From IMG/VR virus record IMGVR_UViG_3300014838_000016, positions 23,699-87,698 of that record: 64,000 bases of DNA, one strand, 5' to 3'. Source of the DNA: a virus. Both the position numbers and the translations under genes were made by a program. This document shows, piece by piece, positions 8,659 to 25,641 of this stretch (position 1 is the first letter of the stretch; each line of letters opens with the position of its first letter). Under the pieces are notes generated by a model. The model did no database searches. It was not told the origin of the DNA and saw nothing but the letters and a program-made list of their open reading frames with translations.

Positions 8659-9354
8659 TTACCCCTGCATGAATGGCGGCATTTGCCACCAGCCAGAACC
8701 AGCGTTGCCTGCTGTTGGGGCGTAAAACGCCATTCCCATGCAGTGCCAAGAGGACTGGTTTTGGGTAAAGTCGGCACTGACTGCACCGTTGACGTTCAAC
8801 TGATATTCGCTCATGTCGCCGTTTTGGATGCCGCCCGGAGCGCCCGTCCAACCTCCCAATGTGCCGCCTGCGGTTGGAGCGGTGATGGTTCCGCCTGAAC
8901 CTGCCGCCATATAGACAAGGGAATTGGCGAAGTTGGGCGTGATGGTTGGCCCGTTAACGGTTGTGCTGCCCGGGCTGGCAAGCTGCTGTGCGGCGTCTTG
9001 GTCAAATTGCCACGCACCATCGGCGTGAAACTCATCAACGTACATGACCAAGTTCGAACCCGTCGTCCAAGACGCCGTTACGGTCGAACCCGACGTTGAG
9101 GCTGCATTGAGGTTGTAGAGCAAATAGGTACTCGCCGTGAAGCCCGTGAGAACCGTGGGGGAATGGGGTGTGAGGACGTAACTGAAGCTGCTACCGTCTG
9201 TTACGGTCAATGCAGTCACAGCTAACGCCATCTGAATCGCGACGAGGACAAGGTTGCCAGCGGTGATGGCACTGCCCAGCGTGACGGACATGGTTGTGAC
9301 CGTCGCAGGAGCTACGTTGAAGTTGCCCCCGCCCTGTACGTGATTCATCGCCAT
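8659..9354 (-). CDS. Virion-associated beta-rich protein, 231 aa
   Basis: Gly/Ser/Thr/Ala-rich protein with alternating strands. It starts NHVQGGGNFNVAPATVTTMS and has a lectin- or jelly-roll-like composition. Its ATG overlaps the stop of the 1295-aa gene (TAATGG), and it is the last gene of the minus-strand virion block. A fibre-tip or decoration role is inferred from location and composition only. Confidence 0.6.
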   Translation of the reverse strand: MAMNHVQGGGNFNVAPATVTTMSVTLGSAITAGNLVLVAIQMALAVTALTVTDGSSFSYVLTPHSPTVLTGFTASTYLLYNLNAASTSGSTVTASWTTGSNLVMYVDEFHADGAWQFDQDAAQQLASPGSTTVNGPTITPNFANSLVYMAAGSGGTITAPTAGGTLGGWTGAPGGIQNGDMSEYQLNVNGAVSADFTQNQSSWHCMGMAFYAPTAGNAGSGWWQMPPFMQG

Positions 9355-12300
9355 TAGCTGTTATCCTCTTCCCACTCGTAACTTACGGTAACAGTCTGGG
9401 TTGCGATGACGGCTCCAAGGTTGATGCAAAGCTGCTGAGCTACACCACGCAGGACGATGCAAGCAGCCCCACCGCGAGTACCGAAGTCCCAAAGCCATGT
9501 GTTGGCACCCGTCGTCGCGTTGGAATCGTCGAAGAACTGGATACCGCGAATTGTGCCAACGGCGGTGCCCAAGGTCGGAGCAGCCGTGTAACGGAGCGGG
9601 GCGGCTGAGGCGGCGGCATAGGCGCTGTCGTGAGGTACTGCGGTCATCGCTGCGGAAGTTCCACCCGTGTCCGCCGCTGAACGCTTGACCAACGTAACCG
9701 CTTCCACGCCAGCCGTGCCACTGGTGCTCATGGAGACTTCCACGCGGGTGATACGGATGGTCTTCGAGGCTGAACCCGGAAGCACGGCGATGTCGCCAGC
9801 GACAGGGGTGAAAGTGGCGAAGCAAGAATAGGTTTGCTTACGACCTTCGATGTTGACATAGAGTGCGCCCGTGGTGTCAGACTGTAACGCCCCGGCCTGC
9901 CCTGCTGTAAGAACAAGTGGCGTGGTGTTGTACTCTGCGGATGTGAGGAGAGCATTCGTTGGAGCAGTTGCACCACCAGCGGCGGAATCCACCGAAGCTC
10001 CAGTGCCGCCTGAGATGCCGACCTTCTGGACGCCAGCGGATGCGGCGACCGCAGCTACCGTGCCGATGAACAGGGAAGAGTTGACGCTTCCAGCGATCAC
10101 TGCTCCCGGAGTTGTACCGAAGTTTGCGGGTGCGCCGAGGGCAGTGCCAGCCCATGCTTGCACGTCACTATTCAAAGCACCATGCAAATCTGTAACAGGC
10201 AGAACTTGGTCACCAGTTGTGTAGGTGATGGTGCTGTACGCGGTTTCAGCGACGGCGGGTAATACGCCTACGTTGAAAGCGTTTGGAGCGGCGTTGTTAT
10301 TTGTGAGGTTGCCTTGGAACGACCACGGAGCCCCACCTTGCTGTACGGTCCACGTACCAGACTGAGTGACGGCTACAGTTCCAGTGATGGTTGTAGAGGC
10401 GAGCGAGACTACCCATGGAGACGTGGATTGGGTGACAGCGACCGTGCCGCTGACTGTGACCGCAGGGGAGTTAGTGATGAAAGCGTTGACAGCGGGGACA
10501 GGTACCGCCGCAGGCGAGCCGCCGTAATTGACAACAGCGGTTGCGCCCAATGCCGTACCAGCCACAGCTTGTAAATCTTGGTTAAGAGCACCATGCAAAT
10601 CGGTGACAGGCAATACCATGTCGCCAGTTGCATAGGTGACGGTGCTGTATGCAGTCTCAGCAATCGCAGGGAGGACGCCAAGGAGTGTCGCCGTGGGAGC
10701 CGCATTGTTGTTGGTAAGCGCACCGTCCACGGCAACCGTACCCGTGATCGTGGTAGACGCTAGCGAAACAACCCATGGGCTCGTGCTCTGGGTGACGGCC
10801 ACTGTTCCAGTGATGGCTGTAGATGCAAGTGAAACGACCCAAGGAGATGTGCCTTGGAAACAGTAGGCATTGACACCAATGACTTCTTCACCCGTTGGAG
10901 CGGTTGCCCAAATTGTCGGACCACCAAGAGCCGTACCAGCAAGAGCTTGCAAATCAGTGTTGACAGCGCCGTGCAGGTCAGTGACAGCCAAAACTTGGTT
11001 GCCCGTGGTGTAGGTGTTGGTCGTGTATGCAGTCGCGGCGAGGTAGCCGAGGCTGCCTTGGTTGTTGGCGGCAGGCGCAGCGGTGTTGTTCGATAGGTTT
11101 CCGCCGGGGAATCCAGTGACGTTGACGTTCAACGCACCACCCGTATTCGTCAAGGCGGTCGTACCAGAGAACAAGGAAGCATTGACTGCTGGAACGTTGA
11201 CGGCAGCGGGTGCCGTGCCGAAAGCAGTTACAGCCGTTGCACCAAGCTGAACTCCAGCAACAGCTTGTAAGTCTTGGTTCAAAGCGCCGTGCAAGTCTGT
11301 AACGGGCAATACCATGTCGCCCGTGGTGTAGGTGACAGTGTTGTACGCAGTCTCGGCAATTGCGGGGAGGACACCCAACAGTGTTGCAGTTGGAGCCGCG
11401 TTGTTATTGCTCAATGCGCCGTCAACGGCCACTGTGCCCGTGATAGTTGTAGACGCGAGAGACACAACCCAAGGGGACGTACTCTGGGTGACAGCGACCG
11501 TGCCTGTGATGCCAAAAGTCGTCGGGAAGTTCGTTACGTCAACGTAAATTGGGTTGCCTAAAGCATTCGCCGCAGTGGTAGCGGAGATCGGCACAGGTGC
11601 CGTACCCGATACAGCGTTCTGACCAACGAAGAGTTCCGCGTTGACCGCAGGAACCAGAACGGACGTTGCAGGAGCGGTACCCCAATCAGTAGGTGCTGCG
11701 ATGGTTGCGGTTACAGTACCGCTCACTACCCAAGGAGAAGTCGATTGCGTTACGGCTACAGTGCCAGTGATTGTTGTTGAAGCCATCGTCACAGGCACAG
11801 TGTTAGTGATGAAAGCGTTGACCGCAGGCACATTTACGGCGGCAGGCGTGGAACCATAACCTACGACGGCTGTGGCACCTAATGCGACTCCAGCAACAGC
11901 CGCCAAATCGCTGAACAGAGCACCGTGAAGGTCGGTTGCGGGTAGAACTTGGTCGCCAGTCGTATAGGTAAGGTTTGTGTACGCGGACTCAGCGATGGCT
12001 GGTAGGACGCCGACGTTTGTGGTGTTGGGAGCGGCATTGTTGTTGGTGAGTGTTCCAACGAATGACCATGGTGCCCCACCCTGCTGTACGGTCCACGTAC
12101 CACTTTGAGCAGCTTGTACGGCGAAGGTTCCCGCGTTGGTGACAGCGATAGTTTGACCAGCCGAAATCCCGACTGTCCAAGCGCCCGACTGCGTGACGGC
12201 GACCGTCCCAGATACGGCTACGGTCCCGCTTACGACCCATGGCGAAGTTCCTTGGAAGCAGTAGGCGTTGACGCCTTGAACTTCCTCACCAGTTGGGGCA

Positions 12301-13241
12301 GTCGCCCAAATCGTAGGACCACCGAGTGCCGCACCAGCTAGTGCTTGCCAATCGACGTTCATGGCACCATGAAGATCGGTGACGGGGAGGACTTGATCGC
12401 CCGTCGTGTAGGTGACGGTTGCATACGCAGTCTCAGCGATTGCTGGCAATACGCCGAGGTTGAAGGCGTTCGGTGCTGCGTTGTTATTGGTGAGGTTTCC
12501 AGCGACCGTGCTGCTCGTTGGATTGACCACGTTGACGTAGATTGGATTGCCAGCGTTGTTTGCCGCAGTTGTAGCCGAGACAGGAACAGGCGATGCCCCA
12601 GACACGGCGTTCTGACCCACAAACATTTCGGCATTGACGGCTGGAACCAACACATTTGTGGCCGGTGCAGTACCCCAATCTGTGGGTGTGGGAATAGTTA
12701 CGGACCACGGAGCCCCACCTTGCTGTACGGTCCATGTTCCAGATTGAGTTGCGGCTACAGTCCAAGCGCCTGATTGAGTGACAGCAACAGTTCCCGTTAC
12801 CCCTACTGACCAAGCCCCACTTTGGATGGCGTTTACAGTCCAAGTTCCGCCCTGATCGGCGACAATCGTGCCGCTTACGACCCATGGCGATGTGCATTGA
12901 GTGACACATATCGAGGCGTTGCTGATGGCGACGGTGCCGCTTACAACCCATGGCGAGGTAGCTTGCGTGACGGGAAGCGAGGACTCAGTGAAGGTGACGG
13001 TCAGCGGATTGACCACGTTGACGTTTAATGCCTCAACTGGCGGGCTTCCAGCCAGTGTTGCGGTGAGGGCTGTGCACGATCCAACGAAGAGCGAGGCATT
13101 GACGGGGATTGCGGCTGTAACGCTGGAGCAGCAACCTACGTCGGGGCAGGTGCCAAACGCGCTCGGAGGGCTGAGTGGGGTGTTATCCCACTGCGTTATG
13201 TTGCCCGAAAACGATAGACCAAATGGGTTTTGAACTGGAAT
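9354..13241 (-). CDS. Giant modular repeat protein of the virion block (adhesin/fibre-like), probable ATT start
   Basis: From GTG 13016 the frame gives 1220 aa, but it stays open upstream for 75 more codons that continue the same repeat style (NASLFVG, NVNVVNP). No ATG, GTG or TTG exists in that extension. An ATT at 13241 lies 8 nt after GGGAG and in a TAATT overlap with a 25-codon ORF, giving 1295 aa. The protein holds six modules containing TDLHGA, about 85-90 residues each, separated by beta strands of the TVAVTQS-TSPWVVSG type. The last 190 residues (GALYVNIEGRKQTYS onward) resemble the end of the 412-aa protein. A host-binding surface fibre is inferred. Confidence 0.75.
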   Translation of the reverse strand: MPVQNPFGLSFSGNITQWDNTPLSPPSAFGTCPDVGCCSSVTAAIPVNASLFVGSCTALTATLAGSPPVEALNVNVVNPLTVTFTESSLPVTQATSPWVVSGTVAISNASICVTQCTSPWVVSGTIVADQGGTWTVNAIQSGAWSVGVTGTVAVTQSGAWTVAATQSGTWTVQQGGAPWSVTIPTPTDWGTAPATNVLVPAVNAEMFVGQNAVSGASPVPVSATTAANNAGNPIYVNVVNPTSSTVAGNLTNNNAAPNAFNLGVLPAIAETAYATVTYTTGDQVLPVTDLHGAMNVDWQALAGAALGGPTIWATAPTGEEVQGVNAYCFQGTSPWVVSGTVAVSGTVAVTQSGAWTVGISAGQTIAVTNAGTFAVQAAQSGTWTVQQGGAPWSFVGTLTNNNAAPNTTNVGVLPAIAESAYTNLTYTTGDQVLPATDLHGALFSDLAAVAGVALGATAVVGYGSTPAAVNVPAVNAFITNTVPVTMASTTITGTVAVTQSTSPWVVSGTVTATIAAPTDWGTAPATSVLVPAVNAELFVGQNAVSGTAPVPISATTAANALGNPIYVDVTNFPTTFGITGTVAVTQSTSPWVVSLASTTITGTVAVDGALSNNNAAPTATLLGVLPAIAETAYNTVTYTTGDMVLPVTDLHGALNQDLQAVAGVQLGATAVTAFGTAPAAVNVPAVNASLFSGTTALTNTGGALNVNVTGFPGGNLSNNTAAPAANNQGSLGYLAATAYTTNTYTTGNQVLAVTDLHGAVNTDLQALAGTALGGPTIWATAPTGEEVIGVNAYCFQGTSPWVVSLASTAITGTVAVTQSTSPWVVSLASTTITGTVAVDGALTNNNAAPTATLLGVLPAIAETAYSTVTYATGDMVLPVTDLHGALNQDLQAVAGTALGATAVVNYGGSPAAVPVPAVNAFITNSPAVTVSGTVAVTQSTSPWVVSLASTTITGTVAVTQSGTWTVQQGGAPWSFQGNLTNNNAAPNAFNVGVLPAVAETAYSTITYTTGDQVLPVTDLHGALNSDVQAWAGTALGAPANFGTTPGAVIAGSVNSSLFIGTVAAVAASAGVQKVGISGGTGASVDSAAGGATAPTNALLTSAEYNTTPLVLTAGQAGALQSDTTGALYVNIEGRKQTYSCFATFTPVAGDIAVLPGSASKTIRITRVEVSMSTSGTAGVEAVTLVKRSAADTGGTSAAMTAVPHDSAYAAASAAPLRYTAAPTLGTAVGTIRGIQFFDDSNATTGANTWLWDFGTRGGAACIVLRGVAQQLCINLGAVIATQTVTVSYEWEEDNS
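9930..13000 (-). repeat. Coding repeats: six TDLHGA modules and many QSTSPWVVS / QSGTWTVQ units
   Basis: Six copies of GD/GN-xVLxxTDLHGAxxxD are spread through the 1295-aa protein. Short 11-13 residue units (TVAVTQS plus TSPWVVS or GAWTV) occur in between. At DNA level the copies differ at many third positions, so the repeats are old or diverging under selection rather than recent slippage. Confidence 0.75.
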
Positions 13242-14244: not shown

Positions 14245-14394
14245 TTACCTCATGCAGTTGCACAATTTTTCCTTGCGCTTGGTGGTCGCTTTACGGGCAT
14301 CCGCACACGTGTTACAGTGATAGGTCACACTGCCATCTTGGTTGTAGACACGCCATTGAGCTTGTTGACCGCACGAACATATTACTTTTGCCAT
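14245..14394 (-). CDS. Zinc-ribbon peptide, 49 aa
   Basis: Starts MAKVICSCGQQAQWRVYN and carries CSC, CNTC and CNC cysteine pairs, a tiny zinc ribbon. The ATG at 14394 overlaps the glycosyltransferase end by 13 nt; a longer start at 14415 is also possible. Neither start has a strong ribosome site, so translation is probably coupled. Confidence 0.55.
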   Translation of the reverse strand: MAKVICSCGQQAQWRVYNQDGSVTYHCNTCADARKATTKRKEKLCNCMR

Positions 14395-15035
14395 AGCTTT
14401 TGAATTGTCTCCCATGATTCGGGTTTGTAGTCCTTGCTCAGGTGCTTCCTGCAAGCATTGGCCGTATGGATCGCCGCTACGACCAAGGCAGGATCGTTCA
14501 GATCGTACCTCGCTGCAACAGGCGTCTTCTTTTGAAAATTGTAGTCGGCTCCCGAGTTGATGTTGTCGAACTTGTTTTTCTCCCAAGCGGATTTGCGTAT
14601 CGCGATAGATGCCATCCATCCGATCCCTTTTGGACTCGTGTATCGGTACGCCAACGCGCTGCCGTGCTGGTAGTAGTAGAGGGTGCTCGTCCCCGAGACG
14701 TGCAGTGCGGGGTTCTCAATGAGCGGTGTGATCTGGCGGGTGATTCGATTCGCTGGGTACCAGTCATCGTCATCCCAAATAATTCCGAATTCCCCGCTCG
14801 ATAGCTCAAAGCACCTATTTATTTTCGCCCCATGATGTTTTTTCGGGCTTTCATGGAAATATTTGACCCTCGGGTCGGCGGGCAGGAGGTCTTGAATTGG
14901 TTCCGCACCGTCATCCAATATGATTAGTTCGAGGTTGGGGTAGTCCTGAGAAAGAAAACACTCTATGGCCCGAGGAAAGAATGCCCTACGGTTGAAGGTT
15001 GGCGTCAGTGCGCTTACGAGGGGAAAATCAGACAT
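14382..15035 (-). CDS. Glycosyltransferase family 2 (GT-A fold)
   Basis: This 217-aa protein has SALTPTFNR (8-16), LIILDDG (38-43) and IIWDDDDWY (86-93), the nucleotide- and metal-binding elements of GT2 enzymes. It would transfer a sugar from a nucleotide-sugar donor. The N-terminal catalytic half is complete and the C-terminal part is short. It sits inside the virion-protein block, so the acceptor could be a fibre protein or a host surface glycan. Its ATG overlaps the end of the HNH gene. Confidence 0.85.
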   Translation of the reverse strand: MSDFPLVSALTPTFNRRAFFPRAIECFLSQDYPNLELIILDDGAEPIQDLLPADPRVKYFHESPKKHHGAKINRCFELSSGEFGIIWDDDDWYPANRITRQITPLIENPALHVSGTSTLYYYQHGSALAYRYTSPKGIGWMASIAIRKSAWEKNKFDNINSGADYNFQKKTPVAARYDLNDPALVVAAIHTANACRKHLSKDYKPESWETIQKLWQK

Positions 15036-15867
15036 GGCATAACCTACAATTTGGGTTGATTATCCCACGCCTGACATGCCAACGAATATGACTAGCGGCT
15101 CGTCCGCCTAAGACCGTAATACGAGCTAAGTGTCCATTTTCAATGTTCTTTCGTCCTTGAGCACGTCCTAAAGATTGTATATGCCCATTTTCGACATTCT
15201 TACAGCCTTGAATACGCCCAAGCTCTTGTATGTGCCCGCTTTCAACATTCTTGCGTCCCTGAATAGGGCCACTAATTCGTCCGCCAATACTGCCGCCGAC
15301 ATGACCGAACTTGGACCGTTGTTCTGGTGTAAGCGAAAGGGCGGCTAGTCGGCGTATCCTATCCAAGTGTCCACTTTCCACATTCTTGCGATGTAGAGCT
15401 TGCATGTGCCCGCTTTCAACATTCTTGCGTCCTTGGATGCGCCCGTTTTCAGCGTTCTTGCGCCCTAAGGCTTGTATTTGCCCGCTCTCAGCGTTTTTGC
15501 GCCCTAACGCTCTAGTTTTCTCAACTAATTTCACCCTGCCCCTTTCATAGATTTCGGCGTAGCGAGGCAACTCATCCACGGCTACCTGATAAACACTTTT
15601 CCTGTTCGCCATGAGATAGAACACCTTCTCAAATTCTGAAGCACACATCGCCAACCAGTAGTGAGCCCTGAAATGGTCCGCAGGCGATACCCGCATGATG
15701 TTGCTTGTATCCCTAGTTAATTCAGGGAATTCTTTCCTCGGGAGGATGTGGTGCTTGTGCCCTACGCTTGCTTTCGACAAAGACTCGATGAATGTAAAGT
15801 ATAATGTGAAGTCCACGTCGGGGAAACGGACGGACAAAATTTCACGAAGATGTATGGGAACGGTCAC
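15028..15867 (-). CDS. HNH-type homing endonuclease with seven KNxE(S/N)G repeats
   Basis: In this 279-aa protein, KHHILPRKEFPEL and NIMRVSPADHFRAHYWLA (residues about 36-80) match phage HNH proteins that begin with an HHILP box. The C-terminal half has seven copies of a G-R-K-N-x-E-(S/N)-G-H unit separated by 6-20 residues, which resembles NUMOD-type DNA-binding repeats. GTG 15867 starts right after the DUF1360-like gene. It is a mobile element gene within the virion block. Confidence 0.75.
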   Translation of the reverse strand: MTVPIHLREILSVRFPDVDFTLYFTFIESLSKASVGHKHHILPRKEFPELTRDTSNIMRVSPADHFRAHYWLAMCASEFEKVFYLMANRKSVYQVAVDELPRYAEIYERGRVKLVEKTRALGRKNAESGQIQALGRKNAENGRIQGRKNVESGHMQALHRKNVESGHLDRIRRLAALSLTPEQRSKFGHVGGSIGGRISGPIQGRKNVESGHIQELGRIQGCKNVENGHIQSLGRAQGRKNIENGHLARITVLGGRAASHIRWHVRRGIINPNCRLCHV

Positions 15868-16227: not shown

Positions 16228-18762
16228 TTAGCCGCAGATCGAAGTCTGTTCGCTCCATCTACATTGTGCAACGGCCTTGGCGCATCCCCTGAAGCTCTTG
16301 CCGGCAATCGTGTAAGTCTTGCCGTTCAAGCAGTCCATGAGACCGTCGTAGTTGCGTGGGAAAGCTGCCGCGTAGCCAGCCCAGACGATGGTGCCGCCCG
16401 TGACGCCAGTTGATGCGGTATCCACATTGACGTTGCCCGGACCAGCCGCGAATGCGGAACCAGTGAGCGTCCCGCCTTCGATAAGCTGGAACAGAACCGT
16501 GGAGCCGTCCGTGAAGACCTGAATTTCGCGGAGTAGCTGTACAAGAGCCGCCGTGCCATTGCCTTGAATCGACCACAGCGGGACGAACGCAGTCGTCATG
16601 ACCTGAGTGTCGAACGCCGCACCGCTGTCGTAGGAGTAGTACTGGATCGAGCAAGCAAACTGCTCGTCCGCAGGGATGGTGACGAGTGCGCCCGATGGTG
16701 AGAGCGACAAGTCCTGATTCGAGCCGAGCGGGAAGGTGTTCGGCCCGCAAATGACCGTTGCCAGTTCGAGCACTGGGGTTGGCATACCACCCGTGATAAA
16801 GACGTTGAGAGATGTCTCAGCGGGGCTGCCCATGGTCGTGTAGGTGTTGCCGCATACGTTGAGACAGGTGTTGGTAATATCAACGAAGAGCGGGGTGTCA
16901 ATGGTGTTGGTGACAGTGACGGTGCCCGTGACGGTGACCGTACCAGTGACGCTTACGGTGCCGCCTGTGATATCGACATAGATCGGAGTGTCGAAGGTGT
17001 TTGCAACGTTGACGTTAAGGAAAGACTCTGCTGGGCTGCCGAGCGTTGTGAAAGTCGCCCCGCATACGTTGAGGCAAGCGTTGGTAACGTCAACGTAGAT
17101 CGGAGTGTCGGGTGTGTTTGAGTTGAGGGTGACATCACCGCCAGTAACGAAAACGTTGAGTGAAGACTCCGCTGGGCTACCTGAAGCTGTGAACGTCGCA
17201 CCAGTGAGGCCGACCGTCCAAGTACCCGCCTGATTTACGAACCAATCGCCGCACTGTGTAGCGCATACCGTGCCGCCAACGCTGAAGACGTTGAGTCCTG
17301 TTTCCGCAGGGCTTCCAACAGTCGTCGTGCCGACGCCCGTGATGTTGATCGTGCCGCCCGTAACATCGACATAAATCGGGGTATCGATGGTGTTCGAGAC
17401 GGTAATGTCGCCGCCCGTAACAAAGGTGTTGAGGGAGGATACCGCAGGACTACCAACCTCCGAGAAGGTTGCTCCGCACACATTGATGCAAGCGTTGGTG
17501 ATGTTTACATCGACCGTGTTGCCGATGTCAACGGTGCCAGTGACGGTGATGGCTCCACCCGGCCCCGTACCAGTGACGGTTACGACGCCAGTGATGGTAT
17601 CAATCGTGCCGCCCTCAACGAAGACGTTGAGTGAGGATACCGCTGGGCTACCAGCGACCGTGAAGGTTTGTCCGCATACGTCGATGCAGGCATTGGTTAT
17701 GTCAACGTAGATCGGGGTTTCTGGCGTGTTCGAGTTGAGGGTAACATCGCCGCCGAGGACGAAAACGTTAAGACCTGCTTCGGCTGGGCTGCCTACGAGA
17801 GTCGTTCCAATAGGAACGCCGCCAATTTCAGTGATGTTGGTGACCCACGGGGATGTGCACTGGGTGACGCAAATCTCGCCGCCAGTTACAAATGTGTTGA
17901 GGCCGCATACCTGAACAGTAGCGCAATCGGGAGTGGTGACGATTTCCGCAGCCGAGATTGTGACCGCACCATTGTTGGCGAGTGCACGACCAGTAAGTGT
18001 ACCGCCGCCGAGAGTGATGCTTGCAACGGCGAGGATGGTGCCTTCAGTGATTGCACCCGGCCCGATGGATGTCCAAGAACTTCCAGCGACCCAAACGATG
18101 TTGCACGCCTGTGCTCCGTTAGCCAAGAGGATCGTGCCAGCAATCTGCTGAGTGATGCCACTGCCAGCGAGGAACACGAACACTGCATCAGGGTTGCCCT
18201 GTGCATCAAGAGTAATCGGTGTGTTGATGGCGAGGGTTGAGCCGCTCGAATAAACGCCCGGGTAGTAAGTCCCAACGGGGGCACCGATGGAGTTCTGCGT
18301 GCCCATGTCCGCCGTGGTGAGTACCGTTCCCGGCCCCAGACCTTGGTAATAAGCGATGGCGTTTGCTACAGCCGTCTGATCTCCAGCCGTGGCGGTGACA
18401 ATCGCCGCAGGAGCGACAACTACGCCCGGTGGGAATCCGATAATTGAATTTGTTGGGTACGAACCGACATTATCGCCCGAGATGACCGAGGAGCCCGAGT
18501 TCGTTACGCCGCTGGAGCCGAGGAGGGCGTAGTTTGCTGCTGAGCCGAGGTGAGAAAGTGTAGGGGAGATTCCACCCGTGCAAGTTGTTCCCACCCCTTG
18601 GATGGTGACTTCTGGGATGTTGATGACGCCGACATTGATCGAGGCGACAGCGGGGCTGCCCGAGACTGTAATGAGGGGACAACCCGTAGTATCGTCGTAG
18701 ATACCAAAGACGGAGATTCCCGTGTACAGCCCGCCCGCACAAGATGAACAATTTTCTGGCAT
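16228..18762 (-). CDS. Virion-block protein with DUF3494 ice-binding-type domain and GSPA repeats
   Basis: In this 844-aa protein, residues about 70-278 match the DUF3494 (ice-binding protein, PF11999) pattern: LGSAANYALLGSSGVTNSG, GDNVGSYP, GTYYPGVYSSG, LDAQGNPDAVFVF, NGAQACNIVWVAG, EGTILAVASITLGGGTLTGR and ALANNGAVTIS. This family forms a discontinuous beta-solenoid and includes ice-binding adhesins. Residues 280-700 hold eight GSPA...LNVFV units interspersed with IYVDVTNACxxVCG units. The last 150 residues resemble part of the 266-aa protein. AAGGAA precedes ATG 18762. A surface-binding role is inferred. Confidence 0.8.
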   Translation of the reverse strand: MPENCSSCAGGLYTGISVFGIYDDTTGCPLITVSGSPAVASINVGVINIPEVTIQGVGTTCTGGISPTLSHLGSAANYALLGSSGVTNSGSSVISGDNVGSYPTNSIIGFPPGVVVAPAAIVTATAGDQTAVANAIAYYQGLGPGTVLTTADMGTQNSIGAPVGTYYPGVYSSGSTLAINTPITLDAQGNPDAVFVFLAGSGITQQIAGTILLANGAQACNIVWVAGSSWTSIGPGAITEGTILAVASITLGGGTLTGRALANNGAVTISAAEIVTTPDCATVQVCGLNTFVTGGEICVTQCTSPWVTNITEIGGVPIGTTLVGSPAEAGLNVFVLGGDVTLNSNTPETPIYVDITNACIDVCGQTFTVAGSPAVSSLNVFVEGGTIDTITGVVTVTGTGPGGAITVTGTVDIGNTVDVNITNACINVCGATFSEVGSPAVSSLNTFVTGGDITVSNTIDTPIYVDVTGGTINITGVGTTTVGSPAETGLNVFSVGGTVCATQCGDWFVNQAGTWTVGLTGATFTASGSPAESSLNVFVTGGDVTLNSNTPDTPIYVDVTNACLNVCGATFTTLGSPAESFLNVNVANTFDTPIYVDITGGTVSVTGTVTVTGTVTVTNTIDTPLFVDITNTCLNVCGNTYTTMGSPAETSLNVFITGGMPTPVLELATVICGPNTFPLGSNQDLSLSPSGALVTIPADEQFACSIQYYSYDSGAAFDTQVMTTAFVPLWSIQGNGTAALVQLLREIQVFTDGSTVLFQLIEGGTLTGSAFAAGPGNVNVDTASTGVTGGTIVWAGYAAAFPRNYDGLMDCLNGKTYTIAGKSFRGCAKAVAQCRWSEQTSICG
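17929..18555 (-). other. DUF3494 (ice-binding-like) domain region
   Basis: This is the part of the 844-aa gene encoding residues 70-278. The sequence keeps the DUF3494 N-terminal GDxGxYP turn, the central NIVWVAG strand and the LAxASITLGGG...GRALAxNGAVT closing strands. Apart from the usual solenoid motifs there is no catalytic residue set. Confidence 0.75.
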
Positions 18763-18866: not shown

Positions 18867-19667
18867 CTAAAACGGTTCCGTCCATTGTATTGAAGCACTT
18901 ACACAATTTGCCAGCGATCCCATCTGAGTGACCACTAGAGTGTATCGGCTGCCGACTAGAACCGGGGGACTTCCTACCTCCACAAAAGCGTATGGAAAAT
19001 ATAATCCTGACTGTAGCGTCACCTCATTAAGTTGCATATAGCCGCTGTTCACAACACGGCCTCCAGAGATTGCCGAGGCTGATGTGTCGTAAACCATAAC
19101 GGACTCCGAGTCAACGCTCTTGAAAGTCGCGCCGATCAATGTTCCGTCTAGCACTATTTGCCAAAGCACCCTTGACCCGTTTCCAGCTAGGTTGAAACCG
19201 CCGAGCAGGGGGAAGTTTAGGGTAATCAATGCAGTGTCGGGCTGGAGAGAGATCAAGGGGACTGGGGTAAGACTGGGTATGATGGTCGGGGTTGTCCCCG
19301 TGTTCACCGAAAATGGATTTCCAGTCAAACCTGCCTGAATAACGGTCGTCGCTAATATGGGGCTGTTGCTGGTCGCGGCTGCGCTGACGTAAACCAACTG
19401 TATGTCGAACGCTTGGATGACTCCAGCAGCTATAGGCGTGAACAGTGTGAGCGTAAAATTGCTGTTGGCATCTACTGTGGCGGTTCCAGCAGGCGACCCC
19501 ATTGATGAGATATTTATCGCAGTTGGCGGGACGTAACCCTGATTTGATAGGAGGGTGACCGATCCTGTTCCGACTTGCAAAATATCGGAAAGCGGGAAGG
19601 TGAATACGGTTGAAACACCGTCGCCCTGCAACAAGAGTGTGATCGGGACTATTTGTTGTAGTGGCAT
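18867..19667 (-). CDS. Virion-associated protein, 266 aa
   Basis: Beta-rich. It starts with LQQIVPITLLLQGDGVSTVF, similar to fibre-associated N-termini of tailed phages. The segment with QIVLDGTLIGATFKS and SGGRVVNSGYM resembles the end of the 844-aa protein (QLIEGGTLTGSAF, TGGTIVWAGY). It starts one base after the stop of the 412-aa gene with GAGGA upstream. Probably part of the same fibre or decoration set. Confidence 0.65.
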   Translation of the reverse strand: MPLQQIVPITLLLQGDGVSTVFTFPLSDILQVGTGSVTLLSNQGYVPPTAINISSMGSPAGTATVDANSNFTLTLFTPIAAGVIQAFDIQLVYVSAAATSNSPILATTVIQAGLTGNPFSVNTGTTPTIIPSLTPVPLISLQPDTALITLNFPLLGGFNLAGNGSRVLWQIVLDGTLIGATFKSVDSESVMVYDTSASAISGGRVVNSGYMQLNEVTLQSGLYFPYAFVEVGSPPVLVGSRYTLVVTQMGSLANCVSASIQWTEPF

Positions 19668-19668
19668 C

Positions 19669-20907
19669 TTATTCCTCTGTCCATGTAATTCTGACGGTCA
19701 TTAGCGAACCCGCTATCGCAAGATTAGAAACGCTGATACCTACAAAGTCGTTTACGCCCCTGAGCGTAATCGCTTGAACACTGTTCACACCGAAATTAAG
19801 TTCAATAGGGGTAGGTCCCACCAACGTGCTCGTGTTGGTGATCCATTGCATAGCCTCGGCTCCTATAACGCCCGCGTTGTAAGTCGTTGTCGTCGGTAGC
19901 GTCGTCCACTGACTCACTATTGCTGTGACTGTTGGGTTCACTGGATCGTCAGGTACAGAAACCACGGTGGTGAATGTTCCTCCAGTGATGGCTGTGAAGC
20001 GGTTTATGACTATCACGCTAGGTCCAGAATTGCCTGTGCTGCAAGCCCAAGAAATTTTCATGTGGCGAATCCTGATTACCTTTGTTGCGGAACCCTGAAT
20101 CGTGAAAAACGGCTTGATGGGATCAGCTACGGGTACGAAGTTAATTTGACACGCACGATACGTTGCTTTACGTCCCGTGTCATCCACATACAACGCACCC
20201 GTTGAATCTAAAGTCAATGGCAAAACCGTTCCCGCAGCATAATCGGGTACGGAAATGGACTCCACGACGCCGCCGACTTCCACAGTCAGTGGATTGACAA
20301 CATTTACATCAAGCGCGAACGTTGCTGGGCTACCAGAGTAGCTTCCTTGCAGCCATTGAAGATCGCCATTCGGGTCCTGTATGCCGATACCGATGGGTTG
20401 CTGGCATGTTGGCGGGGCGTAAGCTGGTGCGGGACAAATGGGACTTCCCGCTGGATACAGACCTTGCACTTGTGGATCAGCCCAAACCGCGCTAGTATTT
20501 CCGGGTTGGGAGATGAGAAGCTGACCAGCATGTGTTGGATGGCTGAGGTCTACTTCTACTTTTGTTCCAACTTCGTCAGTGCAGAGATACGCCGCACTCC
20601 CGCACGCCACAATGCCTGTGGCGTCGAAGATGTAGCCACAGTCTGGACTGTAGGTGATGTTGATGCCAGTACCGGGGATGAAGTTGAGGATGTCTTGACA
20701 CGGCGACGGAACGCCGTTGATTTCTATTACGACCCCCGTTGATAACGGCAAAAGGCATGGGTCAATTTTGCAGTCAGGTCCAAGCAGAACGATAGCGCCG
20801 GGTTCCGCAGGGCAGCAGCCGCTTACCATAGGTATGCGGTACTCCGTCCAGAACTGCTGGTTCGCTTTGTCCTTACGATCTGCGATTACACTATATATCG
20901 TGGACAT
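19669..20907 (-). CDS. Virion-associated protein, 412 aa
   Basis: The N-terminal 150 residues have several Cys and a CQDILNFIPGTGINITYSPD stretch. The central part carries NVVNPLTVEVGGVV units like the 1295-aa protein. The last 190 residues (GALYVDDTGRKATYRACQ onward, ATKVIRIRHMKIS) match the end of the 1295-aa protein. GAGGA lies before the ATG. A structural role is inferred. Confidence 0.65.
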   Translation of the reverse strand: MSTIYSVIADRKDKANQQFWTEYRIPMVSGCCPAEPGAIVLLGPDCKIDPCLLPLSTGVVIEINGVPSPCQDILNFIPGTGINITYSPDCGYIFDATGIVACGSAAYLCTDEVGTKVEVDLSHPTHAGQLLISQPGNTSAVWADPQVQGLYPAGSPICPAPAYAPPTCQQPIGIGIQDPNGDLQWLQGSYSGSPATFALDVNVVNPLTVEVGGVVESISVPDYAAGTVLPLTLDSTGALYVDDTGRKATYRACQINFVPVADPIKPFFTIQGSATKVIRIRHMKISWACSTGNSGPSVIVINRFTAITGGTFTTVVSVPDDPVNPTVTAIVSQWTTLPTTTTYNAGVIGAEAMQWITNTSTLVGPTPIELNFGVNSVQAITLRGVNDFVGISVSNLAIAGSLMTVRITWTEE

Positions 20908-20915
20908 TATTCCTC

Positions 20916-23900
20916 TTAGTTCGGGTTTCCCGTGACCATACAGTTAAATGTTTGTGCCCCGCTCGTGGCGTAGGTGATGGTAAAGCCGCTGTTGCTTGAC
21001 GCCGATATATAGAAAGCGCCCGCGTTCGTTGTCGGCGTCACTACGACGATAGGCGTACTGGTGTAGTTCACCGCGTACGTCTTGCTCACGGTCGTGCCCG
21101 ACCCCGAGGTTATGACGCCTGCGGTGTCCCCGTTTGCCGCCGACACGTTGCCGTGACCCGCCTGCATGACGTTGCCCTTGTTGTCAACACTGAACACTTC
21201 GGTCGTCCCCGCCGCACCTGCAAAACAGTCGATCAATTTGTTCGCAGTGCCGAGCAACGCAGTCTCAGTGACGGCGACCTTTAGAGCCGTGTAAGAGCCC
21301 GATGCCGTAAGGGTCTGGTTGATGGTGGGGGCGATTTGCATGGCAGTGAAGGTGCCAGCACCAGCCGTGGGTGCCCAGTTCAGATGCACGGAGTTGTTCC
21401 CGCCGAGGCTAACCTCTGCGCCGACGTTGATGCCTATGTATGGACCTGCCCCAGTTGTTGCCCATGTTGATCCACCATGCCCCAAGCTAACAAGAGGTTT
21501 TCCACCCGTGTAAGTAGCTGATGGAGACTGGGCGCTGCCAATCTCGGCGGTCCCCAACGCCAATTGATTGTACAAACCAAAGCTAACGCTTGTGCTTTGC
21601 GACGTTATGCTGCCTTGATTAGTACCTCCTTGATAGCCACGCATTATGTCCACACTGCCAGCAATCGTAGCCACTAAGAGTGGGAAACTAGCATTGCCCC
21701 CAATGCTAATTCCGCAAGTAGCTCCCGCTGGACCGATGATCTGTGGATCGGTAACGCCGTAGCTTAGCGGCGTCGGTAACTGAATCTGCGCTGCACCTGT
21801 CGTTCCTGTGTGTGCGATGGTCAAGGTGCTGATGGCGTTCGTGCCCGCTGTCATCACCGAGCCTATCGTCCATTGATCGTTGGCTGACGCGCCGTTCCAG
21901 TACTGTGCAGAAAATCCATGCAGCGGCGATGCGTTGGTCGTGATCGCCGATGCAGTGGTTGTATTCTCCCAATCCCAAAGCACGGCTGAAGTCTGGTTAA
22001 ATGTCGTCGTGAAGCCAGCGTTGGCAAGCGTGAGGTTCCCCGTGGCGTTGGTCAGCGCAGACCATGCGTTGGTGATGGTTGGAGTGCCGCTCAACGCGGC
22101 GTATGCGATGGAGCCCGCAGCAAAGGAAGTCGTGCCACTGACGGTGATGTTGGCAAAAGCTGCGGTGCCAGTGAATGTGGGAGAAGCTAATGGAGCAGCG
22201 CCTGTGACTTGAGCCACAGTGTAATCGCCTGATGTTGCTACGACTGCACCAGTACGACCGAAGACGCTGGTTACAGGAGCGGTCAAAGCTGTGATATAGC
22301 CTTGAGCTTGCACGTATGCTGTTGTTGCAATTTTTGTGCTGTTATCCGCCGTTGCAGGAGTGGTTGATGTTGGCACTCCAGTGAAAGCAACGTTGCCTGT
22401 GAGGGTAGGAGCACCGGCCCACGATCCGCTTATGGTGCCGCCGCTGGAAGTTAATGTGCCAGAGACAGTTTCCGTGCCAGACATCGTGTAGGCACCGCTC
22501 ATGGTTCCTGTAAACGCCCATGTGCCTGTAGTTGCGAAGGCTGTTACAACTAAGGAGCCAGCCGCAAAAGCTGCCGTGCCTGATACTGCGATGTTATTTG
22601 CGAACGTCACTGTACCACTGAAAGTCGGAGATGCAAGAGGTGCAAGCAAAGCTTCGGCGGCTATAGCACGTCCTCTTTCAACTGAAACTGCGGAGTCCGC
22701 GTAAGCTGTAGTTGCAATCTGAGTGTTGGCTGTTAGCGGTGATGCAGTTGGTGCGGTTGGAATTCCAGTGAACGCGGGGGATACCAACGGTGCCGCGCCA
22801 GTAACTTGAGCTACAGTGTAGTCACCACTTACCGCTATGACCGCACCAGTGCGACCAAAGACCGAAGTGACGAGGCTGCTGGCTGCCGTCAAATACCCCT
22901 GTGCTTGCACGTAGGCTGTCGTCGCAATCCTCGTGCTGTTGTCGCTGGTCAAGGGCGTGGTAGACAACGGTGTTCCAGTGAACGTTGGGGATACTAGGGA
23001 CGCTGCACCCGTAACCATGGCGACGGTGTAGTCGCCGCTTACGGCGATAACTACGCCAGTTCTCCCGAAGACCGATTGCACTGGTGCTCCGGCCGAAGTA
23101 ATATAGCCCTGCGCCTGCACGTAAGCAGTTGTCGCTATTTTTGTGGAGTTGTCCACTGTTGCTGGCGTAGAGGATGTCGGTGCTCCTGTGAAGTTCACGT
23201 TGCCATTTAACGTGGTGATTGTCGCCGTAGTGATAGCAGCGGTCGGAATTGTCACCGTCCCAATGAAAGTCGGAGACGCCAGATATGCGAGCGACGTGTA
23301 ATCACTCAGGTCGGTTGATGCGGGCTGAGTCGCCGTGAACAGCCCTGTGATCGCGGAGTAGGAGTTCAGCCACTCATGCGTGATGGCACCAAAAGTCGAG
23401 GGTAACACAGTGGTGTTTGATAGAGCGTCGGTGATGCCGTACCCAGCAAGCGTAGTCGGATGAGACGACAAGTCCGTGAATGCCAAATCCACCACGCCAA
23501 TAAATCCGTTGACGCTTGTGACGGCGGCTGGGGGAAACAGGAGTTCCACCCAATTGCTGAGCACAGAAGCAGGTGTAGCAGCAAGAATGAACGTTTCGTT
23601 GACATCCGTCCGTACAGCAACTTCCCCCTGAGTATCGGGCAAGGCAAGCATTGCGGCTTGGCTCGCAACTACGTAAGTATTGGTGAGCGGGATAACAGGA
23701 AGCTGCGACGTGGGAACCAATCCGCCAGCGTCCAATGACGCATAGCCGTTCGGTTGCCCCTTCTGTGACAAAGGTTGGAGTAACGTTTCGGCGGCTTCCG
23801 CTCGTGAAGTTTCAACCCCTACCGCTGAATCAACATAGGCTGTCGTCGCGATCTGGTTGTTGTCTGTTAGAGGAGCGGCTGTCGGTGCAACAGGAATTCC

Positions 23901-25424
23901 TGTAAATACAGGGGAAGCCAAGGGTGCTGCGCCCGTAACTTGAGCTACGGTATAGTCACCTGTTGCGGCAACGACCGCGCCTACTCTTCCGAAGACCGAG
24001 GCGACGGGGACAGATGATACAGTGATGAAACCTTGCGACAGGACAAAGGCTGTCGTGGCTATTTGACCCGTGCTGGTTCCGGGCGCGGCGGTTGGTGCCG
24101 TGGGGATACCCGTGAACGCGGGCGAGGCGAGTATTGCCACACTTGCTAGTGAGACGTTGGAGTCCTGCACATTGCCGAACCCGTCCGACGAGATGATGTC
24201 GCCCGCTGGCGCGGTGGACACGTTTGGTAGAGTAGTTGCCGCGACAAAAGTGTTGCCCGATCCAAGCACGGTGATCGAACCTGTGGATGTTACCGTGCCC
24301 GTGGCGATGCCCGCGCCTGATATGGAGATCACCCCAGTAGGAGGCGGTGCCGCCCAGATCGTGATACCCGTTCCGTCCGTTTGCAATACCTGCCCTAACG
24401 ATCCAGCGTTCGTGGGCAGGGTGAGGGTCCACGTGCCTGCGTTCGCTTGTTCGCTGATCGTGACGCCGCCGCTTACCGACCCCTTGAGAATCAATTGCCC
24501 TGATACCGGACCACCAAGCGTTATGGTACCGTTAGAGTAGTAAGCTTCGGGGGTGCCACTTACCATTGTTCCTGTCGTAGCATAATAAGCAAGCTGTCCC
24601 GCTAGGCCGTTGCTTACAAATCCACTGGACCCAGCCCCACTCTGTGAGGCACCCATTCCCGCCCAGAGAGCCTCCATGTCGTTGAGGAACGCCTGCGCGG
24701 GAGCGCCTTTGAGGATGTAAGCTCGCTCGGAAGTGCTGACATTGGTTTCGGCGTAGTAAAGCCAAACTGTTCGGCTGGATGTATCGGACGCTGCTCCTGA
24801 ATCTGCTGTGCTGTAACCATCCGTGTTGAGTACGGCTACGCCGCTGTCGTTCCCATCACCACAGCCAGCCGTACCGTAGTCGGCGTGGTTGAAATCTGCC
24901 GTAAAACTGGCAAAACCTGAGGGGCTGGCAAAATCGGTGGAGACACTTGTGATGGTCACGGTCTGACCATTAAGGAATGTGGCGTTTACCAAATTCGGGA
25001 AGGTTACGGTCATGCCGACCGTAAAGGTGTTGTTCGCGGTCACCGTCAACACGTTCCCAAGGATTTGAATTCGTGATATTTCGGCGGAAATCGGCGGCAT
25101 GGTCGCCGTGAACTGTGCGGGGGTTGCGGTTCGCACATGGACGATCAAGCCATTGAGGAACGTGGCGTTTCCCAACCCGCTGAGAGCCGCGTTCATGCCA
25201 GATTTGAAGGAGTTGTTGCCAGTTACGGTGAGGGTGCCGCCCGAAATCGCTATGCCAGTGATGCCGGGCATCAGGTTGGCAGGTTGATTGGATTCAAGGT
25301 ATTGGAGGTCGTTTAGATTGACCATGACCTCTTTGGCGATTGGGTCAAAGAGTGGGTCTGGTTTCCAAATCCAGAAAGCAGCGTGAATTGTAGTGTTGCT
25401 TTGGAACCCAAAACGATTAGCCAT
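20916..25424 (-). CDS. Long tail fibre protein with phage fibre repeats
   Basis: In this 1502-aa protein I chose ATG 25424 because GGAG lies 5 nt upstream; the frame extends 21 codons further up without a ribosome site. The middle holds six NSTKIATTAYVQAQGYI-type units, four VFGRTGAVVATSGDYTVAQV-type units and LASPTFTGT linkers, all typical of tailed-phage fibres. The C-terminal 70 residues (GVITSGSG..., SKTYAVNYTSTPIVVVTPTT) form a beta-rich tip domain. It is the first gene of the minus-strand virion block and probably determines host attachment. Confidence 0.85.
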   Translation of the reverse strand: MANRFGFQSNTTIHAAFWIWKPDPLFDPIAKEVMVNLNDLQYLESNQPANLMPGITGIAISGGTLTVTGNNSFKSGMNAALSGLGNATFLNGLIVHVRTATPAQFTATMPPISAEISRIQILGNVLTVTANNTFTVGMTVTFPNLVNATFLNGQTVTITSVSTDFASPSGFASFTADFNHADYGTAGCGDGNDSGVAVLNTDGYSTADSGAASDTSSRTVWLYYAETNVSTSERAYILKGAPAQAFLNDMEALWAGMGASQSGAGSSGFVSNGLAGQLAYYATTGTMVSGTPEAYYSNGTITLGGPVSGQLILKGSVSGGVTISEQANAGTWTLTLPTNAGSLGQVLQTDGTGITIWAAPPPTGVISISGAGIATGTVTSTGSITVLGSGNTFVAATTLPNVSTAPAGDIISSDGFGNVQDSNVSLASVAILASPAFTGIPTAPTAAPGTSTGQIATTAFVLSQGFITVSSVPVASVFGRVGAVVAATGDYTVAQVTGAAPLASPVFTGIPVAPTAAPLTDNNQIATTAYVDSAVGVETSRAEAAETLLQPLSQKGQPNGYASLDAGGLVPTSQLPVIPLTNTYVVASQAAMLALPDTQGEVAVRTDVNETFILAATPASVLSNWVELLFPPAAVTSVNGFIGVVDLAFTDLSSHPTTLAGYGITDALSNTTVLPSTFGAITHEWLNSYSAITGLFTATQPASTDLSDYTSLAYLASPTFIGTVTIPTAAITTATITTLNGNVNFTGAPTSSTPATVDNSTKIATTAYVQAQGYITSAGAPVQSVFGRTGVVIAVSGDYTVAMVTGAASLVSPTFTGTPLSTTPLTSDNSTRIATTAYVQAQGYLTAASSLVTSVFGRTGAVIAVSGDYTVAQVTGAAPLVSPAFTGIPTAPTASPLTANTQIATTAYADSAVSVERGRAIAAEALLAPLASPTFSGTVTFANNIAVSGTAAFAAGSLVVTAFATTGTWAFTGTMSGAYTMSGTETVSGTLTSSGGTISGSWAGAPTLTGNVAFTGVPTSTTPATADNSTKIATTAYVQAQGYITALTAPVTSVFGRTGAVVATSGDYTVAQVTGAAPLASPTFTGTAAFANITVSGTTSFAAGSIAYAALSGTPTITNAWSALTNATGNLTLANAGFTTTFNQTSAVLWDWENTTTASAITTNASPLHGFSAQYWNGASANDQWTIGSVMTAGTNAISTLTIAHTGTTGAAQIQLPTPLSYGVTDPQIIGPAGATCGISIGGNASFPLLVATIAGSVDIMRGYQGGTNQGSITSQSTSVSFGLYNQLALGTAEIGSAQSPSATYTGGKPLVSLGHGGSTWATTGAGPYIGINVGAEVSLGGNNSVHLNWAPTAGAGTFTAMQIAPTINQTLTASGSYTALKVAVTETALLGTANKLIDCFAGAAGTTEVFSVDNKGNVMQAGHGNVSAANGDTAGVITSGSGTTVSKTYAVNYTSTPIVVVTPTTNAGAFYISASSNSGFTITYATSGAQTFNCMVTGNPN
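21700..24100 (-). repeat. Fibre repeats (IATTAYV / VFGRTGAV / SPTFTG)
   Basis: Repeated units inside the 1502-aa fibre gene. Units share protein sequence but vary at the DNA level. This region also creates several long but spurious open frames on the plus strand. Confidence 0.75.
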
Positions 25425-25641
25425 TTTGCTCCGAGTTAGCTGAATGCAGACGGACGCCGACGTAAGCGCACTACGACCGCTGTTCATGCTTAGAAACGGC
25501 CTTGTGGTTGGGGTTCCGCCTCTATCTATGTGTCTGAAAAACTGGTTTTCGTTTCGCGGACAAAATTGGGAAAATCGTTGTCTGGTTCGAAGTCCATATA
25601 CTGTAACCCGTTGAAAATAAGCCGTAAAAACTCACCAAAAA
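25425..25641. other. Divergent intergenic region between fibre gene and 25680 operon
   Basis: No credible gene. On the minus strand, CGATTTTCCCAATTTTGTCC resembles the CGATTTTCCCAGTTTTCTTGG of the 32685 promoter but lacks a TATAAT at the right place. The fibre gene promoter could lie here, but I cannot place its -10 with confidence. Confidence 0.5.

Follow-up and report, generated by a model that had tools for sequence, protein, structure and literature searches.

A DUF3494 ice-binding-type domain in a candidate surface protein of phage particles, and the exchange of such domains between related phages

The window analysed here is a stretch of 64,000 nucleotides, corresponding to bases 23699-87698 of the 87,698-base IMG/VR record IMGVR_UViG_3300014838_000016. 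Its minus strand carries, in order, genes for a 1523-aa tail fibre, a 412-aa protein, a 266-aa protein and an 844-aa protein with an ice-binding-type domain (Table 1). Small genes come next, then those for a homing-type endonuclease and a glycosyltransferase, and others that include a long repeat protein. No relatives of the 266-aa neighbour gene were found. Pfam matches to DUF1999 and mCpol in the 1220-aa repeat protein, which belongs to this block, were discarded as spurious, as no stretch passed by itself. Within the structural block, the glycosyltransferase family 2 gene (14382-15035) overlaps the homing-type HNH endonuclease gene (15028-15867). From 25530 to 64000, the plus strand is rich in genes for nucleic-acid functions; a tally of 48 window ORFs includes helicase, polynucleotide kinase, RNA ligase, tRNA nucleotidyltransferase, peptide deformylase and numerous endonuclease VII/HNH genes. 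The models tried, of which Gp23 was also silent on its control, detected neither a major head protein nor a contractile sheath nor a terminase in the 87.7-kb record; likewise, models for T4-type Gp23 (with the same silent control), sheath and Terminase_6N matched nothing in the virus records searched.

Table 1. Features of the structural gene block and of the 844-aa protein (positions within the window)
Feature	Position	Strand	Evidence or remark
1220-aa repeat protein, same block	9354..13016	-	Pfam matches on repeats weak
844-aa protein with DUF3494 domain, putatively on the virion surface	16228..18762	-	PF11999, phrog_1645
C-terminal domain, residues 666-844	16231..16767	-	residues 722-810 match phrog_1645
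Repeat region, residues 285-665	16768..17910	-	seven GSPA[VE]..LN copies
DUF3494 / Ice_binding (PF11999) beta-solenoid, residues 70-278	17929..18555	-	Pfam, AlphaFold2, Foldseek
N-terminal segment, residues 1-69	18556..18762	-	one GSPAV motif, no signal-like stretch
266-aa neighbour	18867..19667	-	residues 115-217 match phrog_1645, E 4.3e-8
412-aa neighbour	19669..20907	-	C-terminal domain common to 1220-aa protein, blastp E 2e-13
1523-aa tail-fibre gene	20916..25487	-	phrog_2631 tail fibre, E 4.7e-25

A sequence-only reading of the window had recognized a DUF3494 domain in the 844-aa protein and named a profile search and structure prediction as checks; both bear the assignment out. PF11999 matched residues 81-274 with an E-value of 3.5e-33 and 115.4 bits, well above the curated Pfam cut-off of 28.7, and the match spanned model positions 2-207 of 208. 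A phmmer search of the PDB returned EfcIBP (6eio) at E 1.4e-23, together with 19 more ice-binding chains. The domain alone was modelled by AlphaFold2 with nine viral sequences (pLDDT 92.7, pTM 0.91), giving a discontinuous beta-solenoid with the long bracing helix typical of the family at domain residues 57-71. When this model was compared with the PDB by Foldseek, all 31 matches at E<=0.001 were ice-binding or antifreeze proteins (TM about 0.75-0.85), with the Antarctic ice-binding protein 6eio at the top (TM 0.83). In a related phage, the domain of the ortholog (L003) is 88% identical with a dN/dS of 0.13, and the domain in the window can therefore be regarded as a maintained coding domain. 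The 844-aa protein thus contains an intact DUF3494 domain, chance similarity to PF11999 being ruled out by the E-value, the fold and purifying selection.

In this family, the ice-binding site has been described as a Thr column and a small-residue column on one face of the solenoid (PMC12337378). From that description and an alignment to EfcIBP, the first column of the window domain was assigned to T18, A109, T135, T162, T181 and T199, and the second was found to consist mostly of G, T, S and A, so that the Thr and small-residue pattern of an ice face is present. The face is largely kept: most coils retain Thr, and the second column is still made up of small residues. At one coil, Asp occurs in 43% of the viral clade, where the window protein has Ala. 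Because the face keeps Thr and small residues, ice binding by the window domain is plausible on the strength of this alignment. A polysaccharide ligand is equally compatible.

The remaining parts of the 844-aa protein are of a different kind. Seven copies of a GSPA[VE]..LN motif lie at residues 324-645, with one more in the N-terminus; the repeats C-terminal to the solenoid are of beta type, and their copy number differs from that in the ortholog. The N-terminal segment is 93% identical in the sole relative found, and neither the N- nor the C-terminal part had relatives beyond this one close phage. A predicted model of the repeats together with the C-terminal part reached a pLDDT of 29.5. When searched separately, the C-terminal piece matched the virion structural protein family phrog_1645 (E 5.8e-6, 26 bits; ortholog, 4.7e-6). 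A single-genome search with phrog_1645 gave E-values of 7.5e-7, for this domain, and 5.0e-7, and none of 16 other records or 14 control genomes was matched. Because whole-protein PHROG scans did not list the match for the 844-aa protein, it is taken as modest support. The C-termini of the 844-aa and 266-aa proteins are homologous to each other (blastp 8e-6; hhalign E 1.2e-9). The domain had been described as flanked by virion-like repeats and a fibre gene, which agrees with the seven repeats beside it and the tail-fibre gene of Table 1; its placement among structural genes likewise holds, given the phrog_1645 matches of the C-terminal domain and the adjacent gene, and relatives that adjoin head genes or have a tail-fibre N-terminus.

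The same virus encodes a second PF11999 domain outside the window (C1:3567-4136), in a 1597-aa protein, L010 (C1:1428-6221), which also has PKD- and fn3-like matches, both under their cut-offs. A module of about 55-70 aa, of FLNG type and for which no family name was found, is present in three copies in L010 and in two copies near the N-terminus of the window tail fibre (24906-25259). It was also seen in about a dozen other phage DUF3494 proteins, including L013 and L087. L013, from the related phage IMGVR 3300030399_000020, is the ortholog of L010 and carries a different DUF3494 variant. Whereas the flanks of the two genes share about 77% DNA identity, with dS about 1, their domains are only 58% identical in protein sequence, with dS saturated, and the L010 domain shares 86% identity with those of L072 and L047, which are otherwise unrelated proteins. 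These identities indicate that the DUF3494 domain has been exchanged inside otherwise orthologous proteins of two related phages. Chimeric assembly is an unlikely source of this pattern, because the donor-like domains are 86% rather than 100% identical.

A profile scan of IMG/VR yielded at least 146 relatives, of which 80 were kept, and 50 non-redundant DUF3494-bearing proteins from among the relatives were examined. All 50 matched PF11999. They range from 284 to 2083 aa, carry the domain N-terminally, centrally or C-terminally, and fall into several unrelated architectures once the domain is masked. Two or more copies were found in 16 of 18 virus records (maximum six) when the window record is included, and two to six in 15 of the 17 further records; tandem double DUF3494 frames occur in G002 (224 kb; C1:200886-202613) and G003 (186 kb; C1:105106-106773). 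In five cases, a major head protein is encoded one or two genes before the DUF3494 gene; it was assigned to phrog_267 for L008 (3e-40) and to phrog_1357 for L016, L030, L036 and L062. Tail fibre, head closure, tail and collagen-like families are also represented among immediate neighbours. Most DUF3494-bearing proteins had no match in PHROG scans; across the 50, single or double matches were to head decoration, minor tail and tail fibre families. L017 has a tail-fibre N-terminus (E 2e-12). In a few relatives, DUF3494 is associated with PA14, fn3, PKD, Ig-type or K1-lyase-C-terminal domains. A tblastn search of 50,697 cultured-phage records with the window protein and the domains of two relatives returned nothing.

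A tree was built from 60 viral domains and bacterial relatives picked by similarity among the matches listed. In this tree, 57 of the 60 viral domains form one group apart from the best bacterial relatives listed (SH-aLRT 100), which are at most 44% identical among the matches listed, and the other three (L008, L009, L085) fall with bacteria. Since the bacterial sample comprises the best by similarity among the matches listed, monophyly of the virus-only clade is provisional. By a simple hydrophobicity rule, a signal-like N-terminus was called in 52 of 57 bacterial DUF3494 proteins but in only 9 of 57 viral ones, and was absent from the 844-aa protein. Several of the nine viral calls came from internal starts. 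The convincing ones are the viral-clade members L049 (5038-7332) and L078 (5818-7110), whose signal-peptide-like starts may mark secreted versions. The scarcity of viral signals and the structural gene context favour a protein that is released together with the particle rather than one secreted while the host is alive.

We propose that a tailed-phage particle carries the 844-aa protein as a modular surface protein, of decoration or fibre-like type, in which a short N-terminus is followed by the DUF3494 solenoid, by beta-rich repeats that would serve as a spacer, and by a C-terminal domain of virion type. The solenoid would be displayed on the particle, where its flat face may adsorb particles to an ordered surface, by binding either ice and ordered water or polysaccharide. 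Phages would have reused a virus-specific DUF3494 clade and exchanged it among structural proteins. That the domain acts as an exchangeable adhesive display module on tailed-phage particles, binding an ordered surface, is the reading that we favour and hold to be fairly probable. Ig-like domains are promiscuous modules on phage head and tail proteins, for which weak surface adhesion has been proposed. Phage DUF3494 domains resemble them as promiscuous modules of structural proteins, although the folds are unrelated.

More specific functions were weighed alongside this proposal. The domain may be an adhesin for glycans or cell surfaces, used in host adsorption or biofilm retention, with ice irrelevant; we regard this as possible but lean against it. 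The nearby tail fibre, the tail-fibre N-terminus of L017 and the PA14, fn3 and other domains found alongside DUF3494 in a few relatives all suit such a role, but the low dN/dS and retained ice-face residues are unlike fast-diversifying receptor tips, and neither a catalytic nor a known sugar-binding signature was found. Somewhat more doubtful is an ice-active virion, in which the displayed domain would bind ice or inhibit its recrystallization, holding particles at ice or guarding them through freeze–thaw. The nearest solved relatives are ice-binding proteins, the face columns are largely kept, and a general surface role would fit genomes that each carry two to six copies, spread over different particle proteins; against this, DUF3494 is also known from environments without ice (PMC12337378), and Asp is frequent at one coil of the viral clade, even if not in the window protein. 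A further extension is unlikely: that modules exchanged between proteins of the head, connector and tail have spread the clade, that it coats environmental phage particles with several ice-adsorbing patches, and that freezing would thereby concentrate or preserve virions. An auxiliary gene, whose product would be made in the infected cell and shield the host from freezing, is improbable: the same role was proposed for three Arctic vOTUs (PMC11515562), and L049 and L078 have signal-like N-termini, but the window protein has none, is fused to a virion-family domain and has relatives whose genes adjoin head or tail genes.

The particle reading that we favour sets the window domain apart from known systems in several respects. 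The type 1 ice-binding proteins EfcIBP (6eio), FfIBP (4nu2) and SfIBP_1 (6bg8) share with it the solenoid with its bracing helix (TM about 0.8) and the Thr/small-residue face; they are, however, cellular, and the bacterial ones mostly bear export signals, whereas the viral domains form a clade mostly without such signals and lie inside structural proteins. A viral DUF3494 domain of similar fold (TM 0.83) is found in Hyperionvirus (BFVD A0A3G5A745), but this is a giant virus of eukaryotes. As here, PF11999 has been reported in viral contigs, in three Arctic vOTUs and a homolog in Synechococcus phage S-SKS1, where it was proposed to mark auxiliary genes for host cryoprotection; the available part of that source describes neither a virion context nor a clade (PMC11515562). 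No open-access paper combining "DUF3494" and "phage" was found. The sequence-only reading had considered it new for a phage structural protein to use this domain for binding a crystalline or glycan surface, or for keeping particles active in ice or cold soil. The domain is not unique to this phage, but its reading as a virion module and the virus clade appear to be undescribed in the open-access literature.

If the particle reading is true, a protein family investigated for its role in shielding cells from ice would also recur in phage particles as an exchangeable component, and PF11999 matches in viromes would be read as structural genes rather than as auxiliary genes that help the host. With so many viral sequences available, expressing their domains would show directly whether ice is bound by viruses. 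Should the ice-patch reading prove true, it would constitute a freeze adaptation at the level of the particle, previously undescribed.
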